Assembly (NCBI RefSeq): GCF_019947135.1
Contig: NZ_JAGSHT010000001.1
Location: 62,001-126,000 of the forward strand
Source of the DNA: Occultella gossypii
Lineage (GTDB): Bacteria; Actinomycetota; Actinomycetes; Actinomycetales; Beutenbergiaceae
Direction: 5' to 3'
DNA: 64,000 nucleotides
Shown here: in pieces, positions 1 through 9,492 of the stretch
Numbering within the stretch: the first letter of the stretch is position 1
Layout: each line of letters starts with the position of its first letter
Notes under the pieces: model-generated
Told to the model about the DNA's origin: nothing
What the model saw: the letters and a program-made list of their open reading frames with translations, nothing else
Database searches by the model: none
Made by a program: the position numbers and the translations under genes

Positions 1-2
1 TC

Positions 3-1490
3 AACGACCACCTGCTCGAGGGCATGAAGGTGGTCGGCGAGCTGTTCGGCCGTGGCGAGATGCAGCTGCCGTTCGTGCTGCAGTCGGCGGAGGCCATGAA
101 GGCGGCGGTGGCCTACCTCGAGCCGTACATCGAGAAGACCGACGAGGCCGGCAAGGGCACCATCGTCCTGGGCACCGTGCGCGGCGACGTGCACGACATC
201 GGCAAGAACCTCGTCGACATCATTCTCACCAACAACGGCTTCACGGTGGTCAACATCGGGATCAAGCAGCCGATCTCGGCGATGATCGAGGCCGCCGAGA
301 AGCACAACGCGGATGTCATCGGGATGAGCGGCCTGCTGGTGAAGTCCACCGTGGTGATGAAGGAGAACCTCGCGGAGCTCGCCGCCCGCGGCCTCGCCGA
401 GAAGTACCCGGTGCTGCTCGGCGGCGCCGCCCTGACCCGCGTGTACGTCGAGGACGACCTCGCCGGGCAGTACCCGGGCGAGGTCCGCTACGCCCGCGAC
501 GCGTTCGAGGGTCTGCGCCTGATGGAGCCGCTCGTGCGGGTCGCACGCGGGGAGGCGCGCGACGCCGTCGGGCTTCCCGCGTTGAAGAAGCGCATCCACG
601 CGAAGGTGACGGTCGACGAGACGCCGCCCGAGGATCTGCCGGCCCGCTCGGACGTGAGCCTGACGAACCCGATCCCGAGCCCGCCGTTCTGGGGCACGCG
701 GATCGTCAAGGGCATCAAGCTCGCCGACTACGCCGCGTTCCTCGACGAGCGCGCCACGTTCATGGGGCAGTGGGGCCTCAAGCCCTCCCGCGACGGTGAG
801 CTGTCCTACGAGCAGTTGGTCGAGACCGAGGGACGGCCACGGCTGCGGGACTGGCTGGACCGCATCCAGACCGAGGAGATGTTCGCCCCGGCCGTCGTCT
901 ACGGCTACTTCCCGGCCGTGTCCGAGGGCGACGACATGGTCATCCTGCACCACGAGGGTCCCGACGGCGGGTCCGGCGGGGAGCCGGGCACGGAGCGGAT
1001 GCGGTTCACGTTCCCCCGGCAGCGGCGCGACCGGCACCTGTGCCTGGCCGACTTCGTGCGCCCCCGCGAGTCCGGTGAGACCGACGTCGTCGGGTTCCAG
1101 CTCGTCACCGTCGGTGCGGCCGTGAACGACCACACGGCGCGACTGTTCGCGGCCAACGCCTACCGCGACTACATGGAGCTGCACGGGCTGTCGGTGCAGC
1201 TGACGGAGTCGCTCGCCGAGTTCTGGCACTCCCGGGTCCGCGAGGAGCTCGGCTTCGCCGCCGAGGACCCGGCGGACATCGAGGGCATGTTCAAGGTCGC
1301 CTACCGCGGTGCCCGGTACTCGCTCGGCTACCCGGCCTGCCCGAACATGGAGGACCGCCGCAAGATCGTGGAACTCCTCGGTGCCGCCCGGATCGGGGTC
1401 GAGCTCTCGGAGGAGCTGCAGCTGCACCCCGAGCAGTCCACCGACGCGATCGTGTTCCACCACCCGGAGGCCAAGTACTTCTCGGTGTGA
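3..1490 (+). CDS. metH: Cobalamin-dependent methionine synthase, C-terminal part (cut by window edge)
   Basis: Transfers the methyl group of methyltetrahydrofolate to homocysteine through a cobalamin cofactor; cytoplasmic, last step of methionine synthesis. The frame is open from base 3, so the homocysteine and folate domains lie outside the window. About 495 residues remain. They begin in the helical cap domain, then the B12 domain with the cobalt-ligand motif GDVHDIGKN (His codon at 192-194), and end with the S-adenosylmethionine reactivation domain, recognisable by [16 protein letters not shown] near the C-terminus. The C-terminal order matches MetH and rules out the B12-independent MetE. 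No odd features in the visible part. Confidence 0.95.
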
Positions 1491-1512
1491 CCGGCGCTGA
1501 TCCGGGCCGGGT

Positions 1513-2541
1513 TCACCCTCGGCTTCGGGTCCCCGGTGCTGGGCCGGTGGAGCCACGCACGATCAGGTCGGTGCCGAGTTCGCGGACCACCGGCTGCGTG
1601 GACGGTGCCGGGGCGAGCGCGATCTCGAGGGCGGCGGCGCCCATTGCGCGCAATGGCAACCGCACGGAGGTGAGCCCCGGGTTGAGGTCCCGGGAGACCG
1701 CGATGTCGTTGAAGCCGGCGACCGAGACGTCCTCGGGCACGACTCGCCCGTGCTCGCGCAGCCAGGACATCGCGCCGATCGCCATCTGGTCCGCGGTACC
1801 CACCAGAGCCGTCAGACCGGGCTGGGCGGCGAGCAGCTCACCGGCGCCCCTGTAGCCCTCGTCCCGGGTGGGCGCTCCCGGGCGTGCCGTCACAGATCCG
1901 CCCGCGCCCTCCACCGCCGACCGCAGGCCGTCGAGTCGTTCGATCGTGGAGCTCACCTCGGCCACACCGACCAGCACCCCGATGTGTCGATGCCCCAGCG
2001 AGACCAGGTGTTCACCGAGCCGGCGTCCGCCCGCGGCGTTGTCCACGAGCACGTGGTCCACCTCGAAGAACGGATGGCCGATCGCCACCACTCGGCCGCC
2101 GGCCGCCTCGAAGGACCGGGCTCGGGCGGTCATCCCCGCGCCGTAGCGATCGTCCGTGCGGCCGGAGCCGGCGATGATGACCACGCCGGTGCGGTGTGCC
2201 TGCAGGAGCCGGAAGTACTCGAGCTCACGTTCGACGTCCCGCTCGGTGCTGCAGATCGTCACCAGGAGGTGCCGGCTGGTCGCGACCTCGTGGATTCCGT
2301 TCACGATCTCCGAGAAGTACGGATCGTCCACGGTGCCGACCAGTACCCCGACGGTCCGGGCGGCGCCGCCGAGCAGACCCTGCGCCTGCGCGTTCGGGAC
2401 GTAGTCGAGGTCGCGGGCGGCCTGCACCACCCGCTCACGCAACGCGGTCGCCACCGGGTAGTCGCTGCCGGAGAGCACCCGGGACGCCGTCGGGACGGAG
2501 ACGCCGGCGCGTCGCGCGACGTCACGCAGGTTGACGGCCAT
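1513..2541 (-). CDS. LacI-family transcriptional regulator
   Basis: 342 residues. The N-terminus carries the classic LacI helix-turn-helix and hinge (LRDVARRAGVSVPTASRVLS, residues about 5-24), followed by a periplasmic-binding-protein-like effector domain, which in this family binds a sugar or related small molecule. It is divergent from the Nramp-like/epimerase/aldolase operon starting at 2668, so it most likely controls that operon in response to its substrate (inference from position). The start is ATG 2541; a TAGCCT hexamer at 2553-2548 lies six bases upstream and there is no ribosome binding site, suggesting a leaderless message. It converges on metH, with stop codons 22 bases apart. 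Confidence 0.9.
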   Translation of the reverse strand: MAVNLRDVARRAGVSVPTASRVLSGSDYPVATALRERVVQAARDLDYVPNAQAQGLLGGAARTVGVLVGTVDDPYFSEIVNGIHEVATSRHLLVTICSTERDVERELEYFRLLQAHRTGVVIIAGSGRTDDRYGAGMTARARSFEAAGGRVVAIGHPFFEVDHVLVDNAAGGRRLGEHLVSLGHRHIGVLVGVAEVSSTIERLDGLRSAVEGAGGSVTARPGAPTRDEGYRGAGELLAAQPGLTALVGTADQMAIGAMSWLREHGRVVPEDVSVAGFNDIAVSRDLNPGLTSVRLPLRAMGAAALEIALAPAPSTQPVVRELGTDLIVRGSTGPAPGTRSRG

Positions 2542-2603
2542 GGCAGGAGGCTATGGCATCGCGTGGCGTGCCGCCGATTCGATCACCTCCGGCGTGCTGT
2601 GGG

Positions 2604-2631
2604 TTGACGGCCTTGTGTCGTGCGTCATAGT
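2604..2631 (+). promoter_or_regulatory. Putative promoter of the Nramp-like operon
   Basis: TTGACG (2604-2609) and CATAGT (2626-2631) are separated by 16 bases and resemble a housekeeping sigma promoter (-35 five of six matches, -10 four of six). Transcription would start near 2638, downstream of the alternative GTG at 2620, so it supports the ATG at 2668 as the true start of the first gene. Predicted only from motif match. Confidence 0.5.
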
Positions 2632-2650
2632 TTCATCACCTACCCCCTTG

Positions 2651-2664
2651 AGAAAAGGCTTTCT
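2651..2664. promoter_or_regulatory. AT-rich inverted repeat, candidate LacI operator over the ribosome binding site
   Basis: AGAAA-AGGC-TTTCT is a perfect five-base inverted repeat in otherwise GC-rich DNA. It lies between the predicted transcription start and the ATG at 2668 and contains the purine-rich ribosome binding site (AAAAGG). A bound repressor here would block transcription just after initiation. The assignment to the adjacent LacI protein is inference; the centre lacks the CG typical of many LacI operators. Confidence 0.35.
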
Positions 2665-2667
2665 ACT

Positions 2668-3885
2668 ATGTCAACGAGTTCCCCGACGGCCGAGCCGCGG
2701 GTCCGCGTGCCGGGTCGCCTCGGCCCGGCCTTCATCACCGCCGCGCTCGTGTTCGGACCGGGCAGTGTGACCACGGCCAGCTCCATGGGGGCCGAGTTCG
2801 CCTATGACCTGGTCTGGGTTCCGGTCATCGCCACCGTGCTGATGCTGTGCTTCGTGGACCTGTCCGTACGGATCGGGCTGACCACGGACACCGGGCCGAT
2901 CGGAACCGTGTCGCGTCGGATGGGACGCGTCGTCGGTGTGCTCGTCGGACTCGGCGCGTTCGCCGTCACCGCGTCGTTCCAGGCGGGGAACTCGGTGGGC
3001 ACCGGCGCGGCCGGGAACGTGCTCTTCGGTGGGAGCACCGCCGTGTTCGCGGCCGTGTTCACGCTCGCCGCGATCGGGTTCCTGTGGCTGCGGTCGTTCT
3101 ACAAGTACCTCGAGCGCACCATGATCGTGATCATCCTGGTGATGCTCGTGATCTTCGTGGTCACCGCCGTGGTCGCCGCCCCGGACCTGGGCGCCCTGGT
3201 GGCCGGCCTCGTCCCGAGCATCCCGACCGGCTCCTCCGCGATCGTCGTCAGCGCCGTCGCCACCACGTTCTCGGTGGTCGGCGCGTTCTACCAGATCCAG
3301 CTCGTGCGGGAGAAGGGCTGGGGCGTCGACGACTACCAGGTGGCTCGCCGGGACGCGGTGATCGGCACCCTCATCCTCGGCACGCTGTCGACCGTCATCA
3401 TGATCGCGGCGGCAGCCGTGCTGAATCCGGCCGGGCTCTCGGTCACCTCCCCGGCGGACATGGCGACGATCCTCGAGCCGGCGATCGGACAGTGGGCCAC
3501 GGTCCTGTTCGCACTCGGCCTCTGGGCGGCCGCGTTCTCCTCGCTGATCGGCAACAGCACCATCGGCGGCAGTATGCTCGCCGGTGCCCTCGGGATCGAG
3601 GCCGGGGGCCTGGAGTCGAAGCGGGTGAAGATCTGCATCACCCTGGTGCTGGTGGTCGGCGGGGTGGTGGCCGTGCTGTTCGGGGGCATCCCGGTGCAGC
3701 TGATCCTGACCGCGCAGGCCGTGACGATCCTGCTGGTGCCGCTGATCGGGGTGGTACTGGTCGCGCTCTCCCGGCACCGGGATCGCGGCTCGCTGCGCCT
3801 CGGCACGCCACAGCTGGTGCTCGCCATCGTCGGCGTGATGTTCCTGACCCTGCTCGCCGTCAACTACGTGAGGAACCTGCTGTGA
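2668..3885 (+). CDS. Nramp-family (LeuT-fold) transporter lacking canonical metal-site residues
   Basis: 405-residue polytopic membrane protein with about 11 hydrophobic segments and the overall Nramp layout. Canonical Nramp proteins import Mn2+ or Fe2+ using Asp and Asn of a DPGN motif in helix 1 and Met/His of an MPHN motif in helix 6. Here helix 1 reads FGPGS (residues 29-33), and the helix 6 region (about 199-208, TTFSVVGAFY) has no Met, His or Asn. Ion transport of the usual kind is therefore doubtful. It is first in an operon with an epimerase and an aldolase, behind a LacI regulator, which suggests uptake of an organic substrate (inference). Start ATG 2668 is chosen over GTG 2620 because it has an AAAAGG ribosome binding site and lies downstream of the predicted promoter. 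Confidence 0.8.
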   Translation: MSTSSPTAEPRVRVPGRLGPAFITAALVFGPGSVTTASSMGAEFAYDLVWVPVIATVLMLCFVDLSVRIGLTTDTGPIGTVSRRMGRVVGVLVGLGAFAVTASFQAGNSVGTGAAGNVLFGGSTAVFAAVFTLAAIGFLWLRSFYKYLERTMIVIILVMLVIFVVTAVVAAPDLGALVAGLVPSIPTGSSAIVVSAVATTFSVVGAFYQIQLVREKGWGVDDYQVARRDAVIGTLILGTLSTVIMIAAAAVLNPAGLSVTSPADMATILEPAIGQWATVLFALGLWAAAFSSLIGNSTIGGSMLAGALGIEAGGLESKRVKICITLVLVVGGVVAVLFGGIPVQLILTAQAVTILLVPLIGVVLVALSRHRDRGSLRLGTPQLVLAIVGVMFLTLLAVNYVRNLL

Positions 3886-4916
3886 CAGAAGAGACCCGCC
3901 CCGCGGACGAGGCCGCACTGGACGATCTGCTCTCCCGGCCCGGGCCCGGTGTGGGCGCCGCGCTCGCGGCGGTGGGTGGCGACATCGTGCTGCTCGGTGC
4001 CGGCGGCAAGATCGGCCCGACCATGGCGCGGATGGCCGCGCGCGCGCTCGCCGAGGTCGGGTCCGACGCGCGCGTCATCGCCGTGTCCCGGTTCTCCGAC
4101 CCCGCGGCAGCCGAGTCGCTGGAGGCACACGGCGTGCTGGTGCACCGAGCCGACCTGGCCGAGCCGGCGAACTACCCCACGCTGCCCGATGCGGCAGCGG
4201 TGTTCTACCTCGCCGCGATGAAGTTCGGCACGACGGGCGCCGAGCACCAGACCTGGTGGTCCAATGCGGCCATCCCGGTGCTCGTGGCCGATCGCTACCG
4301 AAGCGTCCCCACGATGGTGTACTCCACAGGAAACGTCTACCCGCTCACCCCGCTGGCCCACGGCGGCTCGATCGAGACCGACGCCGCCGGGCCGGTGGGC
4401 GAGTACGCCCAGTCCGGGCTGGCCCGAGAGCGGATCTTCACCAACGCCGCGCACACCTGGGGGACCCCGACCACGATCTACCGGCTGAACTATGCCTGCG
4501 AGCTGCGCTACGGCGTGATCGCCGACATCGCCATGAAGATCGCCGGCGGTGAACCGGTGGACGTCACGATGCCGGCAGTGAACGTCGCCTGGCAGGGTGA
4601 CATCAACGCGTGGGCGTTGCGCAGCATCGAACTCGCCGGAGTGCCACCGCACGTCCTGAACGCCACGGGGCCGGAAACGGTCTCGGTGCGCCGGATCGCC
4701 ACGCTGCTCGGCGAGGTGATGGGCCGGGTGCCCGTGCTGGCCGGCGAGGAGTCGACGGATGCGCTGCTCAGCGATGCCGGCGAGTGTCATGACCGGTACG
4801 GCTACCCGAGTGTGCCGTTGCGCCGACTGGTGCGCTGGGTCGGGGAGTGGGTCGCCGACGGCGGGCGTCAGCTCGGCAAGGCCACCAAGTTCCAGCAGCG
4901 GGAGGGGAAGTTCTGA
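3882..4916 (+). CDS. NAD(P)-dependent epimerase/dehydratase family protein
   Basis: 344 residues, extended short-chain dehydrogenase fold. The Rossmann dinucleotide motif VLLGAGGKIG lies near residue 35 and MVYSTGNVYP, the usual catalytic Ser/Thr strand, near 145-155. The family normally has a YxxxK catalytic pair; here the corresponding stretch is EYAQSGLARER, in which Tyr is present but Lys is replaced by Gly, with Arg three positions later. The GTG start at 3882 overlaps the transporter stop by four bases, so translation is probably coupled. The substrate is unknown; the operon suggests a sugar or sugar-acid derivative whose product passes to the downstream aldolase (inference). Confidence 0.8.
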   Translation: MTEETRPADEAALDDLLSRPGPGVGAALAAVGGDIVLLGAGGKIGPTMARMAARALAEVGSDARVIAVSRFSDPAAAESLEAHGVLVHRADLAEPANYPTLPDAAAVFYLAAMKFGTTGAEHQTWWSNAAIPVLVADRYRSVPTMVYSTGNVYPLTPLAHGGSIETDAAGPVGEYAQSGLARERIFTNAAHTWGTPTTIYRLNYACELRYGVIADIAMKIAGGEPVDVTMPAVNVAWQGDINAWALRSIELAGVPPHVLNATGPETVSVRRIATLLGEVMGRVPVLAGEESTDALLSDAGECHDRYGYPSVPLRRLVRWVGEWVADGGRQLGKATKFQQREGKF

Positions 4917-5938
4917 TGCGTGTGCAGGAGCGTCTGCGTGGCGGTGTGGTCATCCCCGCGCACCCATTGGCCATCGCCGCCGACGGCGGCATCGATCTGC
5001 GTGCCCAACGCGCCCTCACCCGGTACTACCTGGAGGCAGGTGCGGACGGCCTGGCGGTCGGGGTGCACACCACCCAGTTCGAGTTGCATGCGGATCCGGG
5101 CGCGTTGCGTGAGGTGTGGGATCTCGCCGCCGCCACCGTGCTTGAGTTCTCCCCCGAGACGATGCTGATCGCCGGGCTCGTCGGCGATACCGAGCAGGCT
5201 GTCGCGGAGGCGCAGGCGGCGGTGGCTTCCGGCTATCACGCCGCGCTGCTCAGCCCGTGGGGGATGGCGGACGGCAGCGAGCGGGCCCTGCTCGAACGCG
5301 CCCGCGCCGTCGGAGAGGTCCTGCCCACGATCGGCTTCTACCTGCAGGACAGCGTGGGTGGCGGGCCGCTAGGACGCGGCTACTGGAGCGCCCTGTTCGA
5401 TCTGGAGTCCGTGATCGCGGTCAAGACCGCGCCCTTCGACAGGTACCGGACCAATGACGTGGTGCGGGCGCTGCTCGACCACGATCGCTGGGCCGAGGTG
5501 GCCCTGCTGACCGGGAACGACGACGCGATCGTGCACGACCTGATCACGCCGTACCGCCGTGGCGACCGGGAGGTCCGCGCCGCCGGTGGCCTGCTCGGGC
5601 AGTGGGCGGTGGGCACCCGGGCCGCGGTCGGGCTGGTCCGGCGCGCACGAGCAGCAGTCGCGGCCGACGCCATCGGGGCAGATCTGCTCACCGAGGCGAC
5701 CGACCTGGTCGAGGTCAACGCGGCGGTGTTCGACGTCGACCACGACTTCGCCGGATGCGTGCCCGGGGTCAACGAGGTGCTCCGGCAGCAAGGCCTGCTC
5801 TCATCGGCGCGCTGCCTCGACCCCGGCGAGGCGCTCTCGCCGGGGCAGGCCGACCTGATCGGCCGGGTCCGGACGCAGTTCCCGGAGCTGCTGGATGAGG
5901 AGTTCGTGGCCGGACGCCGCGATGAGTGGTTGCGCTGA
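4916..5938 (+). CDS. Dihydrodipicolinate synthase/N-acetylneuraminate lyase family aldolase
   Basis: 340 residues, class I aldolase of the DapA/NanA superfamily (TIM barrel). The Schiff-base lysine is K170 in SVIAVKTAPFDRY and the catalytic tyrosine is Y142 in GFYLQDS. These enzymes cleave or form 2-keto acids, with pyruvate as one partner. It is unlikely to be the lysine-pathway DapA because it sits in a LacI-regulated operon behind a transporter and an epimerase, and it is longer than DapA (about 290-300). The ATG shares its A with the upstream TGA stop, and GGGAGGGGAAG precedes it. A catabolic role, splitting an imported keto-acid sugar, is inferred. Confidence 0.85.
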   Translation: MRVQERLRGGVVIPAHPLAIAADGGIDLRAQRALTRYYLEAGADGLAVGVHTTQFELHADPGALREVWDLAAATVLEFSPETMLIAGLVGDTEQAVAEAQAAVASGYHAALLSPWGMADGSERALLERARAVGEVLPTIGFYLQDSVGGGPLGRGYWSALFDLESVIAVKTAPFDRYRTNDVVRALLDHDRWAEVALLTGNDDAIVHDLITPYRRGDREVRAAGGLLGQWAVGTRAAVGLVRRARAAVAADAIGADLLTEATDLVEVNAAVFDVDHDFAGCVPGVNEVLRQQGLLSSARCLDPGEALSPGQADLIGRVRTQFPELLDEEFVAGRRDEWLR

Positions 5939-6062
5939 CGGTCGGGCCCGGCGTGATGATCGCCGCCGCGCGGCCGGCCCGGGTGTGGGCTCCGAACTGA
6001 CGACCGGGGTCGGCGAGGGCTGACCGGCCGCGGTGCCGGACGGGGGCGGATCTCCTGACCTC

Positions 6063-6092
6063 TTGCACTATACGTATACATATGCGTATCCT
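6063..6092 (+). promoter_or_regulatory. Promoter with palindromic operator before the EXLDI gene
   Basis: TTGCAC (6063-6068) and TATCCT (6087-6092) form a possible promoter with an 18-base spacer. The spacer holds an AT-rich near-palindrome, ATACGTAT-ACAT-ATGCGTAT (6070-6089; arms match at seven of eight positions), which stands out strongly from the surrounding GC-rich DNA. A repressor bound there would block RNA polymerase directly. EXLDI genes are often found near TetR regulators; none is adjacent here. Confidence 0.5.
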
Positions 6093-6116
6093 CGTACCGG
6101 AGGTTACGATGAGCCC

Positions 6117-6635
6117 ATGCCGAACAAGACGATCTATGTCTCCGACGCCGACCTGCCTCTCTACGAACGGGCGCAGGAACTCGTCGGCGGCAACCTCTCC
6201 CAGGCGATCGTCAAGGCGCTGCGTCGGTACGTCGACGTCGAGGAGGGCAAGGACGAGGGTTTCGAGGAGATCACCGTCCGGGTCGGTCCTGGCAAGGGGC
6301 GGCGCCAGCGGTTCCTCGGCGTGCTGCTCGTCGAATGGCTCCAGTCCACCAAGGACCGGGTGCACAAGTACAAGGTGTATCGCAGCCGGACCGGCAAGTA
6401 CGTGGTCCACGCCGAACGCTCGCCGGAACAGATCTGGGCGGCCGGTGCCGACGGTCAGGCCAAAGGCTGGCGCAAGCACGTCAGCTCGGACCAGACCTGG
6501 GGCACCACCGCCGCCGTCGCCACGCTCGAGATCTTCGACGACCTGGACGCCCTCCGTGAGAAGGTCCCGGCCTCCCTCTACGACCTGGTCGCTGCCAGTG
6601 CCGACGTTCCCGAGGTCGAGGACCTCGACATCTGA
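6117..6635 (+). CDS. EXLDI-family protein
   Basis: 172 residues, beginning MPNKTIYVSDADLPLYERAQ and ending VEDLDI, which fits the family named for its C-terminal ExLDI motif (TIGR04342). The molecular function of the family is unknown. Members are found in actinobacteria, commonly beside ABC-2 type exporters, as here. The N-terminal part resembles small DNA-binding ribbon-helix-helix proteins in its pattern (KTIYVSDADLPLYERAQELV followed by a helix), but I would not assign that function. Start ATG 6117 follows GGAGG at 6099-6103 with a long 13-base gap; the overlapping ATG at 6109 is in a different frame that does not encode the family sequence. Confidence 0.75.
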   Translation: MPNKTIYVSDADLPLYERAQELVGGNLSQAIVKALRRYVDVEEGKDEGFEEITVRVGPGKGRRQRFLGVLLVEWLQSTKDRVHKYKVYRSRTGKYVVHAERSPEQIWAAGADGQAKGWRKHVSSDQTWGTTAAVATLEIFDDLDALREKVPASLYDLVAASADVPEVEDLDI

Positions 6636-6638
6636 GCC

Positions 6639-6661
6639 CGCCGGGGGATAGGCCCCCGGCG
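6639..6661 (+). terminator. Hairpin after the EXLDI gene
   Basis: A perfect nine-base-pair stem (CGCCGGGGG / CCCCCGGCG) with a five-base loop begins four bases after the stop codon. No T-run follows, so it would be of the U-less type common in actinobacteria. Confidence 0.6.
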
Positions 6662-6677
6662 CACCATCACCGCCCAC

Positions 6678-6786
6678 GGGCGGGCGCGAGCCTGCCCAGC
6701 AACGCCCCAGACCCCATGGGCGGGCGCGAGCCTGCCCAGCAACGCCCACACCTCAAGGGTTGGCGCGAGCCTGCCCACCCACCGCC
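6678..6786. repeat. Short tandem repeat, three units of about 40 bp
   Basis: Two nearly identical copies start at 6678 and 6718 (core GGGCGGGCGCGAGCCTGCCC) and a degenerate third starts at 6757 (GGGTTGGCGCGAGCCTGCCC). The rest of the 230-base gap between the EXLDI gene and the ABC transporter holds only the hairpin at 6639-6661 and the GAAAGG ribosome binding site of the next gene. Function unknown. Confidence 0.7.
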
Positions 6787-6866
6787 TCGGGGGGTGGGCC
6801 GGCCATGCCAACACGACCTCCGCCGTCGGCCATCGACGCGCCGGACGAAACGAAAGGAACCCCCAG

Positions 6867-7652
6867 ATGACAACCATTGCGGACCCACCCCCAGCGATCC
6901 ACGTCAAGGACCTGGAGAAGTCCTACAAGGACCTGCAGGTGCTGCGCGGCGTCGACTTCGACGTGGCGCCAGGCGCCATCTTCGCCCTGCTCGGCTCCAA
7001 CGGGGCCGGCAAGACCACGATCGTGCGGATCCTGTCCACACTGCTGCGGGCGGACGCGGGGACCGCGACCGTGAACGGCTTCGACCTCAGCACTCGGCCG
7101 ACCGACGTGCGGGAGTCCATCAGCCTGACCGGGCAGTTCGCGGCCGTGGACGAGATCCTCACCGGGCGGGAGAACCTGGTGCTGGTCGCCCGGCTGCGGC
7201 ACCTGCCGAACCCGGGCGCGGTGGCGGACGACCTGCTCGCCCGCTTCAACCTGACCGACGCGGCGGCCCGGCGGGTCTCGGGCTACTCCGGCGGCATGCG
7301 CCGGCGGCTCGATATCGCCATGAGCCTGATCGGGAGCCCGCGGGTGGTCTTCCTGGACGAACCGACCACCGGGCTCGACCCCCAGGCCCGCAACGACATG
7401 TGGCAGATCGTCCGAGACCTCGCCGACGACGGCACCACCGTGCTGCTCACCACCCAGTACCTGGAGGAGGCGGAGAAGCTCGCGGACCGGATCGCCATCC
7501 TGCACGAGGGGCGCATCATCGCGAACGGCACGCTGGCCGAGATCAAGCAGCTCGTGCCGCCCGTCGAGGTCACCTACGTCGAGAAGCAGGCCTCGCTCGA
7601 GGACGTCTTCCTCGCCATCGTCGGGACCAACACCACCAAGGAGCAGTCATGA
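6867..7652 (+). CDS. ABC transporter ATP-binding protein, daunorubicin-resistance (DrrA) type
   Basis: 261 residues, the ATPase of an ABC-2 type exporter at the inner face of the membrane. Walker A is GSNGAGKTT (near residue 48), the signature is YSGGMRRRLDIAM, Walker B is RVVFLDEPTTGLD, and the switch histidine is replaced by Gln in LLTTQYLEEAE, as is usual in the DrrA group. The ATG at 6867 is preceded by GAAAGGAAC. It overlaps the permease gene by four bases, so the two subunits are translationally coupled. The substrate cannot be read from sequence; relatives export drugs or lipids. Confidence 0.9.
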   Translation: MTTIADPPPAIHVKDLEKSYKDLQVLRGVDFDVAPGAIFALLGSNGAGKTTIVRILSTLLRADAGTATVNGFDLSTRPTDVRESISLTGQFAAVDEILTGRENLVLVARLRHLPNPGAVADDLLARFNLTDAAARRVSGYSGGMRRRLDIAMSLIGSPRVVFLDEPTTGLDPQARNDMWQIVRDLADDGTTVLLTTQYLEEAEKLADRIAILHEGRIIANGTLAEIKQLVPPVEVTYVEKQASLEDVFLAIVGTNTTKEQS

Positions 7653-8413
7653 CCGCGCACGTCCTCGCCGACACGTCCGTCCTCGTCGGTCGGTCGATGC
7701 GCCATATCACGCGCAGCATGGACACCATCATCACGGTCACCATCACGCCGATCGCGATGATGCTGATGTTCGTCTACGTCCTCGGCGGCGCGATCCAGGC
7801 GGGGGCCGGCCGGTACGTCGACTACCTGCTGCCCGGGATCCTGCTGATCACGATCGCGTCGGGAATCGCCTACACGGCCGTCCGGCTGTTCAACGACATG
7901 ACCAGCGGGATCTTCGAACGGTTCCACTCCATGCCGATCGCCCGCTCGTCGGTGCTGTGGGCGCACGTGCTGACCTCGCTGGTCTCCAACGGGCTCTCGG
8001 TCGCGATCGTCGTGCTCGTCGCACTCGTGATGGGGTTCCGGTCACCGGCGGGACTGCTGGCGTGGCTCGCGGTGGCGGGCATCCTGGCGCTGGTCACCCT
8101 GGCGCTGACCTGGCTCGCCGTGCTCGCCGCGCTCGCCGCGAAGACGGCGGAGGGTGCCACCGCGTTCTCCTACCCGCTCATCTTCCTGCCGTTCATCAGC
8201 TCCGCGTTCGTCCCGACGGACACCATGCCCGGGCCTGTCCGAGCCTTCGCCGAGAACCAGCCGGTCACCTCGATCGTCAACACGATCCGCGCACTGCTGG
8301 CGGGGGAGCCGGTCAGTGGCGACATCTGGATCGCGCTGGCGTGGTGCGTGGGGATCCTCGCCGTCGCCTACGTCCTCTCGATGGTTGCCTACCGGCGCCG
8401 GATCGCCTCGTAG
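7649..8413 (+). CDS. ABC-2 type permease, DrrB-like
   Basis: 254-residue integral membrane protein with about six hydrophobic segments (for example residues 25-48, 60-80 and 105-175). It is the membrane partner of the ATPase encoded just upstream, and its ATG overlaps that gene's stop. The pattern RFHSMPIARSSVLWAHV after the second helix is typical of the DrrB/ABC2-membrane family. It probably forms a homodimer in the exporter. The stop codon at 8413 is followed almost at once by a convergent gene. Confidence 0.85.
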   Translation: MTAHVLADTSVLVGRSMRHITRSMDTIITVTITPIAMMLMFVYVLGGAIQAGAGRYVDYLLPGILLITIASGIAYTAVRLFNDMTSGIFERFHSMPIARSSVLWAHVLTSLVSNGLSVAIVVLVALVMGFRSPAGLLAWLAVAGILALVTLALTWLAVLAALAAKTAEGATAFSYPLIFLPFISSAFVPTDTMPGPVRAFAENQPVTSIVNTIRALLAGEPVSGDIWIALAWCVGILAVAYVLSMVAYRRRIAS

Positions 8414-8419
8414 CAGGGG

Positions 8420-8965
8420 TCAGATCGCCAGGCCCTCGATGACCTCGACGCCGGGCATCGCGGCGAGGACCTCGCCCGGGAGCAGGATCTTGGAGCGCCG
8501 TAGGCCGCTGCCGATGATCGCCTGGCCGGTGCCGACCGCCGGATCGAGCAGGATCCGGTGGTCGGCGGGCAGCCCGATCGGGGTGATCCCGCCGTACTCC
8601 ATGCCGGAGTCGGCGACCGCCCGGTCCATCGGCAGGAACGAGGCCTTGCGGACGTCCAGCAGACGCTTGACCACGTTGTTGACGTCCGCGCGGGTGGTGG
8701 CGCGCACGACGGCGGCCGCGATCCGCTCCTCGCCGGCGCGCCGCCCGGCCACGAGTACGCAGTTCGCGGACGCCTCCAGCGGCAGGTCGTAGGCCTCGGT
8801 CATCTCCGCGGTGTCGGCGCATCCGGGGTCGATCTCGGCAACAAGCACCTGCCCGACGGCGTCGGGCGCCTGCTGCGCCCACGTCGCCAGGGCGACGCGG
8901 ACGCCGGTCGCGAGCAGGTCCGGGTGATCGAGGGCCGGCGCCCAGTCCAGGGTTCCGAACCGCAT
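8420..8965 (-). CDS. YbaK/EbsC-family aminoacyl-tRNA deacylase-like protein
   Basis: 181 residues of the YbaK/ProRS-editing fold. Family members hydrolyse mischarged aminoacyl-tRNA (Cys- or Ala-tRNA-Pro) in the cytoplasm. Visible family features are NNVVKRLLDVRKASFLP in the middle and the glycine-rich C-terminal half, GGITPIGLP and AIIGSGLRRSKILL, that forms the substrate pocket. The conserved lysine of YbaK is probably the K of RKASFL. Its ATG shares one base with the stop of the preceding YbhB-like gene, so the two are co-transcribed. The exact substrate is not assignable. Confidence 0.85.
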   Translation of the reverse strand: MRFGTLDWAPALDHPDLLATGVRVALATWAQQAPDAVGQVLVAEIDPGCADTAEMTEAYDLPLEASANCVLVAGRRAGEERIAAAVVRATTRADVNNVVKRLLDVRKASFLPMDRAVADSGMEYGGITPIGLPADHRILLDPAVGTGQAIIGSGLRRSKILLPGEVLAAMPGVEVIEGLAI

Positions 8966-9492
8966 CAGCGCTCGAACGTCGGCGTGATCACCGCGCGGGC
9001 GAGCGTGTGGAACAGTGCGACGAAGGAGAACTTGGTGGCGCTCTCCTCATGGGAGAGCTCCAGGGTCTCGACGTCGAGGGCGTGCACCGCGAACGCGTAG
9101 CGGTGCGGCCCATCCCCGGGCGGTGGTGCGGCACCCTCGTAGGCGTACGCCCCGCCGTCGGTACGGGCGTGGAAGGCCGCGCCGGGCAGGGTGAGGTCGC
9201 TCTCGCCCCAGCCCTGCTCCATCTCCGTGACGGTCACGTCCAGGTCCGCCACGGTCCAGTGCCAGTAGCCGGACGGGGTCGGGGCGTCCGGGTCGAAGCA
9301 GGTGAGCAGGAAGCTCTGCGTCTGCGGCGGGAACCCGGACCAGCTCAGCTGGGGCGAGACGTTGCCGCCGGTCAGCGAGTGCAGCGCGGGCAGGGGAGTG
9401 CCGTCGGTGATGTCGGTGCTGGTCACGGTGAACGTGGCGGTGGCGGGAAGTGCGTCATAGGGGGCGGGGGCGACGGGGCGCTGCAGGTCCAT
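8965..9492 (-). CDS. YbhB/YbcL (PEBP) family protein
   Basis: 175 residues. It matches the bacterial phosphatidylethanolamine-binding-protein (Raf kinase inhibitor-like) family: GNVSPQLSWSGFP, then CFDPDAPTPSGYWHWTVADL with the ligand-site DPDAP and HW motifs, and GPHRYAFAVHAL near the end. The biochemical role of bacterial members is unclear. The start at 9492 (MDLQRP) is chosen over an upstream in-frame codon at 9540 because AAGGAG lies five bases before it. There is no signal peptide, so it is cytoplasmic. First gene of a two-gene unit with the YbaK-like gene. Confidence 0.85.
   Translation of the reverse strand: MDLQRPVAPAPYDALPATATFTVTSTDITDGTPLPALHSLTGGNVSPQLSWSGFPPQTQSFLLTCFDPDAPTPSGYWHWTVADLDVTVTEMEQGWGESDLTLPGAAFHARTDGGAYAYEGAAPPPGDGPHRYAFAVHALDVETLELSHEESATKFSFVALFHTLARAVITPTFER

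Follow-up and report, generated by a model that had tools for sequence, protein, structure and literature searches.

A LacI-linked operon with an Nramp-related transporter and an aldolase-like protein in Occultella gossypii: a candidate catabolic system for an organic acid

The 64-kb stretch of Occultella gossypii DNA analysed here (the window, part of contig C14 of a 5.84 Mb genome) contains a LacI-family repressor gene divergent from three overlapping genes, which encode an Nramp-related transporter, a short-chain dehydrogenase/reductase (SDR) family protein and an aldolase-like protein. We propose, with a probability of about 0.62, that they form a nearly self-contained, substrate-induced catabolic operon, in which the transporter would import an organic, probably acidic, substrate and a Schiff-base aldolase would split it. 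Import of an organic acid appears to be favoured by the absence of any charged ligand in transmembrane helices (TM) 1 and 6, the exchange of the TM3 glutamate for asparagine, the presence of a separate canonical MntH in the genome, the conservation of the four-gene unit and the ATP-binding cassette (ABC) importers found elsewhere.

In the proposed mechanism, the LacI regulator would occupy AGAAAAGGCTTTCT, just 3' of the promoter, when no substrate is present and would block transcription, as the position and conservation of this element suggest; substrate would release the regulator. The transporter, with a central site devoid of charged metal ligands, would take in an organic, most likely acidic compound, such as a sugar acid or a similar hydroxy or keto acid. 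The NAD(P)-binding SDR protein would convert this compound by a reaction other than the usual YxxxK type, and the Schiff-base (class I) aldolase would cleave the SDR product, probably to pyruvate or a related 2-keto acid, to judge from K170, Y142 and the superfamily.

The four-gene unit and its regulator

The repressor gene lies on the minus strand (1513–2541), and its product matched the Pfam families LacI PF00356 (5.2e-15) and Peripla_BP_3 (3.2e-30). On the plus strand follow the genes for the transporter (2668–3885, ATG start, 405 residues), the SDR protein (3882–4916, GTG start, 344 residues) and the aldolase-like protein (4916–5938, ATG start, 340 residues). Their overlaps of 4 bases (3882–3885) and 1 base (4916) confirm the divergent, overlapping arrangement described in the original prediction. 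The transporter matched Pfam Nramp PF01566 over residues 34–372 (E=2.9e-60; 204.6 bits, cut-off 29.8), while the matches of the SDR protein to Epimerase PF01370 (E=1.4e-6; 28.3 bits, cut-off 20.9) and of the aldolase to dihydrodipicolinate synthase (DHDPS) PF00701 (E=1.2e-5; 24.7 bits, cut-off 22.1) were weak.

All four genes occur together in other genomes, as the original prediction required, and this recurrence led us to reject a chance neighbourhood. Among 24 family genomes searched, a close transporter was identified in 8 (72–100% identity, this genome included), and the complete unit is present in all seven of the others (72–96%). It was also found in three other genera, in Georgenia subflava, Amycolatopsis taiwanensis and Pseudonocardia CNS-004, which brings the distinct genomes with the full unit to 11, this one included and with L037, L039 and L041 counted as the same genomes as G008, G017 and G015. 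An SDR scan of genome contigs returned 30 loci from three phyla. The aldolase gene stands beside the SDR gene in 22 of them (one gene apart in L064), a LacI orthologue adjoins the pair in 14 of these 22 (57–91% identity; three loci are cut by a contig end), and an Nramp relative was found in 6 (in pieces in L053). In a class-wide search of 394 genomes, the aldolase was detected in 29 (36 matches), and the SDR gene was adjacent in 19 of the 20 more distant aldolase loci that were read, out of 35 such matches. The SDR–aldolase pair is a widespread module. Since the composition rule used to call the relatives' neighbouring genes misplaces some open reading frames (ORFs), presence and absence were judged by tblastn. 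The tree of SDR and aldolase sequences leaves the number of transporter gains and losses undecided (support 39–61 at the deep forks). At one locus, in a metagenome-assembled genome of the Propionibacteriaceae (L047, 930–1071), about 27 codons resembling the C-terminal end of the Nramp gene follow the operator and overlap the SDR start; either the transporter has truly been lost there, leaving this relic, or the assembly is at fault.

A sigma-70-type promoter of the operon (TTGACG-16-CATAGT, plus strand, 2604–2631) is the sole promoter-like match in 1450–6100, where shuffled sequence gave a mean of 0.3 matches, and TTGAC was found in all 19 related intergenic regions. Between this promoter and the transporter start codon, just 5' of the latter, lies the conserved, palindromic predicted LacI operator AGAAAAGGCTTTCT (AGAAA-N4-TTTCT; plus strand, 2651–2664). 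The form [AG]GAAA-N4-TTTCT is present in 18 of the 19 regions, the exception (L053) being a frameshifted contig, and both the operator and the LacI orthologue are common to loci with and without the Nramp gene. The regulator has the helix-turn-helix and periplasmic-binding-like domains of the LacI family, and it is predicted to bind the conserved palindrome at the promoter. The operator pattern, which was derived from these same loci, has an expected count of 0.01 in a shuffled 64 kb. A genome-wide search at up to one mismatch, made to find further pathway genes in a wider LacI regulon, returned none beyond this operon; the match here is the only one in the window and the genome, and a reversed control also gave one genome-wide. 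Because the match is single in the genome and the motif is conserved in related intergenic regions, the most likely target of the LacI protein is this operon alone.

Site residues of the transporter and the two enzymes

Alignment revealed that the canonical metal ligands of the transporter are all exchanged: in TM1, aspartate by G30 and asparagine by S33; in TM6, methionine by S202; and in TM3, glutamate by N108. TM1 reads GPGS instead of the canonical DPGN, and the canonical MPH of TM6 is likewise lost, so the claim that this Nramp-like protein is without the canonical ligands holds at each of the three helices. The protein shares PF01566 membership and a near full-length alignment with canonical Nramp/MntH proteins, and it passes the general NCBIfam model NF037982, "Nramp family divalent metal transporter" (89.9 against a cut-off of 50). 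With G30xxS33, T199xxS202 and N108 instead of DxxN, A/CxxM and glutamate, it falls outside canonical MntH, whose NCBIfam model it matches with 75.2 bits against a cut-off of 430. The second Nramp of the genome is a canonical MntH that retains its metal ligands. In both the clade of the window transporter and its sister clade, uncharged residues occupy the positions of the metal ligands and of the TM3 glutamate, and positions constant in all 13 rows of the two clades and rare in 20 other rows include D64, N108, S202, Y208 and N296. The transporter tree included one non-Nramp row (cand_L015_1657p), and its long branches were flagged.

Two characterised groups with related folds were compared. 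NRMT proteins share with the window transporter the Nramp fold and an altered central site, but their motif is DxxG in TM1 and TxxA/T in TM6 (PMC8806188, available text), whereas the window transporter has GxxS and TxxS, with glycine in place of the TM1 aspartate and no acidic residue. Assignment to PxpT was likewise not supported: the operon has no pxp gene, and PxpT-like sequences branch separately in the tree. Two such PxpT-like proteins, from genes next to a pxpA-family gene (neither of them PxpT itself), share the TM1 glycine, D64 and N108, with an alignment gap next to D64; they come from a sample of 20 pxpA-side loci, 2 of which had an Nramp-like neighbour. Another Nramp-related clade (L098–L103) carries GPGT in TM1 and an aspartate in TM3, and no aldolase match was found in these six loci.

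The SDR protein has the glycine motif of NAD(P) binding, which reads GAGGKIG in 28 of 29 aligned rows and GVGGKIG in the remaining one. The YxxxK tyrosine is kept, and the lysine is absent from all 29 rows (24 C, 2 A, 2 G, 1 S); in further SDR proteins, cysteine stands at this position in all 15 that were readable out of 20 loci. K114, invariant in 28 aligned rows, might stand in for the missing catalytic lysine. The frameshifted loci L053 and L054, which matched in pieces, were excluded from the SDR and aldolase alignments, and L065 was kept in the 29-row alignment (with X at its stop) and excluded from the 28-row one. As the lysine is missing in every relative aligned, the label "epimerase" of the original prediction is unsafe, and "SDR-family protein" is the more appropriate name for the product. 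Among solved structures, profile comparison placed the TerB oxidoreductase closest to it. Lysine-less SDR genes also occur without the aldolase (L055–L058, L060–L063), followed in several cases by Gfo/Idh-like, 2-hydroxyacid dehydrogenase and class III aminotransferase genes; two of these families were confirmed in L057, and the others were judged from first residues.

The aldolase aligned with N-acetylneuraminate lyase (NAL) and DHDPS (best profile E 2.3e-8) in the regions of the Schiff-base lysine and the tyrosine. K170, which matches the NAL lysine, is present in 21 of 21 aligned aldolases and Y142 in 20 of 21, which places the protein in the class I superfamily and upholds its description as a DHDPS/NAL-type aldolase. 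It differs in having GVHTTQF where a TTGE-type motif is usual in this superfamily. A role as DapA in lysine biosynthesis was rejected, since no dapA model matched at E≤1 and another gene of the genome matches DHDPS far better (258.7 versus 24.1 bits); the genome has 11 other DHDPS-family genes.

Related loci and alternative explanations

The nearest other transporters, a sister clade of 32–38% identity, have both LacI and DHDPS-family genes beside them in all 10 loci (L036, L092–L097, L193–L195), with the gene order swapped in two loci of one genus. The DHDPS-family enzyme of this second system is only distantly related to the window aldolase: the L094 protein shows 26% identity (E=7e-5), and the L093 protein gave no useful BLASTP match. 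Around more distant Nramp relatives, a DHDPS-family match was observed in 1 of 17 loci. This locus (L107, 7059–13627) contains an Nramp relative of another branch (26–29% type, GAGD in TM1) within a sugar-acid cluster that includes an L-talarate/galactarate dehydratase (673 bits, cut-off 500), a KdgD-type dehydratase (402 bits, above the subfamily cut-off of 278 and just under the equivalog cut-off), a glucarate-dehydratase-like protein (278.8, cut-off 828.7) and an aldehyde dehydrogenase. This is a third case in which Nramp relatives are associated with sugar acids, seen at one locus; L111, with a similar transporter, has no such sugar-acid neighbours. At one locus of the second system (L036, 6652–7521), a partial DcuA/DcuB dicarboxylate-transporter ORF lies between the DHDPS-family and Nramp-like genes. 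By eye, the intergenic regions of L036 and L092–L097 show repeated CGTTC/GAACG half-sites before the second system, resembling LacI-type operators of another kind.

Where the enzyme pair occurs without an Nramp gene, other importers are frequent. A CUT1 permease was found near the pair in 7 of 13 such loci from the SDR scan (13 of the 16 Nramp-less pairs were tested, with a query permease from L051, one of the 13) and in 12 of 20 from the aldolase search. None was found in the 7 loci with Nramp or in 27 loci around other Nramp relatives, 10 of which belong to the second system. A peptide-type ABC importer was identified in Brachybacterium L066 (by Pfam) and in L040 (87–90% identical). In L048–L052, the pair is accompanied by another LacI gene, a CUT1 importer and a Gfo/Idh gene, together with a D-mannonate dehydratase in three loci (ManD above its equivalog cut-off in L051) and a fructuronate-reductase-like gene, scoring below its model cut-off, in four. 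A gluconokinase (L052) and a GH20 protein (L173) are also encoded near the pair.

Several observations weigh against organic-acid import and cleavage by the window operon. Among the 8 Nramp-less loci with a LacI orthologue, 5 contain an enolase-superfamily gene and 6 a 2-hydroxyacid dehydrogenase gene; at the same tblastn threshold, both types were absent from the 10 other Nramp loci and from the window. In the Nramp-less variants, the substrate may differ or the pathway may begin at an earlier step, and because these extra enzymes accompany them, the argument from transporter exchange is weakened. In 4 of the 13 Nramp-less loci tested, no ABC importer came to light; in three of these, but not in L042, the contig is cut near the operon. 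Support for the grouping of the two transporter clades is moderate (85/69). The importer of L107 may instead be a TctA-like ORF there, recognised by its first residues and without an NCBIfam match. Because the aldolase falls well short of the NCBIfam cut-offs, its substrate is not readable from sequence; the best of its weak matches are to KdgD-type models. Finally, the solved relatives matched by profile (21 sequences) are all named metal transporters, among them 7qia (E=2.2e-35), which we take to be EleNRMT.

These profile matches also speak for the chief rival, which we regard as unlikely: that the transporter has remained a metal importer, for a divalent cation needed under the same conditions (Mn2+ or Mg2+, as reported for NRMT/MntG). 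Enzymes of the class I aldolase and SDR types need no metal, and no Rfam match at gathering scores was found in positions 1–9000, hence no known Mn/Mg riboswitch there; on this ground a metal regulon was rejected, although MntR-type boxes were not looked for. The operator pattern at this operon only, the canonical MntH of the genome and the lack of an acidic residue in TM1 or at the TM3 glutamate position also argue against metal import. NRMTs move Mg2+ through an altered site, but they keep the TM1 aspartate of DxxG that is a glycine here (PMC8806188, available text). YcsG/MntG, a B. subtilis relative encoded in a 5-oxoproline operon, was reported to be a Mn importer and to raise cellular Mn (PMC10448178, available text), a further point for the metal reading. 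Slightly less probable still is an organic substrate of another kind, such as a lactam or an amino acid, with the SDR–aldolase pair acting on its product. Our literature search showed a single supported case of an organic substrate for an Nramp relative, 5-oxoproline for PxpT (PMC13274462, available text), and some planctomycete and Lentisphaerae SDR genes that lack the aldolase neighbour lie with genes for a 2-hydroxyacid dehydrogenase and a class III aminotransferase (L057; others by first residues). Against this stand the CUT1 importers, ManD, gluconokinase and GH20 genes near the pair, and the sensing of sugars by most characterised LacI regulators (PMC4052901, available text). It seems quite improbable that the genes make or detoxify a compound which the transporter exports, so that the operon would not be catabolic; the direction of transport is not readable from sequence and the SDR protein is atypical, but ABC importers with solute-binding proteins lie near the same pair elsewhere, and the LacI control also argues against export.

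Catabolic use of an imported organic acid remains our preferred reading. The catabolic part of the original prediction agrees with the LacI-linked operon, the conserved unit, the loss of metal ligands, the retained aldolase lysine and tyrosine, the ABC importers elsewhere and the second system of LacI, DHDPS-family and Nramp-related genes; its epimerase step was not supported.

Precedents, significance and flanking features

The closest precedents are PxpT of C. glutamicum and YcsG/MntG of B. subtilis, in which an Nramp-related transporter is likewise found in a catabolic operon with its own regulator. They differ in their 5-oxoprolinase partner genes and, in C. glutamicum, in a GntR-type regulator. 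C. glutamicum needs PxpT (cg1142) to grow on 5-oxoproline, and in the available text the authors do not exclude metals (PMC13274462). An organic substrate for an Nramp relative thus has one supported precedent, contested by the Mn claim for YcsG/MntG. In the family tree of a 2026 preprint, one group is termed NRMT-like and another, which includes MntG, "G-motif 3"; its available part describes the other Nramp-related groups, the majority, as entirely uncharacterised (PMC12873925). The xynABC (Salmonella) and yagEF (E. coli) systems also place a regulator together with a DHDPS-family aldolase, and xynABC includes a transporter as well; as far as the available text describes them, they employ a major facilitator superfamily transporter, an IclR regulator and a dehydratase, whereas the window has an Nramp relative, LacI and an SDR protein and no dehydratase (PMC12445098). 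Literature searches gave, among the matches listed, no link of Nramp to LacI or to sugar-acid, DHDPS or aldolase operons, and one match for Nramp with operon terms was discarded, as "Nramp" there denoted mouse genotypes.

The chances appear evenly balanced that the whole Nramp branch defined by GPG[S/N] in TM1, asparagine in TM3, serine in TM6 and asparagine in TM8 gave up metals. Its members would then be organic-acid importers placed beside two distantly related DHDPS-family aldolases under LacI control, with a partner SDR family that carries cysteine or a small residue instead of the lysine. Proteins of this branch pass NF037982 and will be named divalent metal transporters; if they import organic acids, many annotations are wrong. 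The Nramp family would then handle organic nutrients as well as metals, in line with the remainder of the APC superfamily, and there would be an independent test for the dispute over whether PxpT and YcsG carry an organic acid or Mn. The SDR family without its catalytic lysine would represent a further puzzle for enzymologists.

On the LacI side, the locus is flanked by the end of a B12-dependent methionine synthase gene. On the aldolase side lies a small gene (6117–6635) whose product has no Pfam match and which occupies the same place in the two nearest relatives (L029, L030), followed by an ABC ATPase gene. Between these two genes, a tandem array (6673–6777) of 2.7 copies with a period of about 40 and the core GCGCGAGCCTGCCCA was observed; the exact core occurs three times in the genome, each time within this array.

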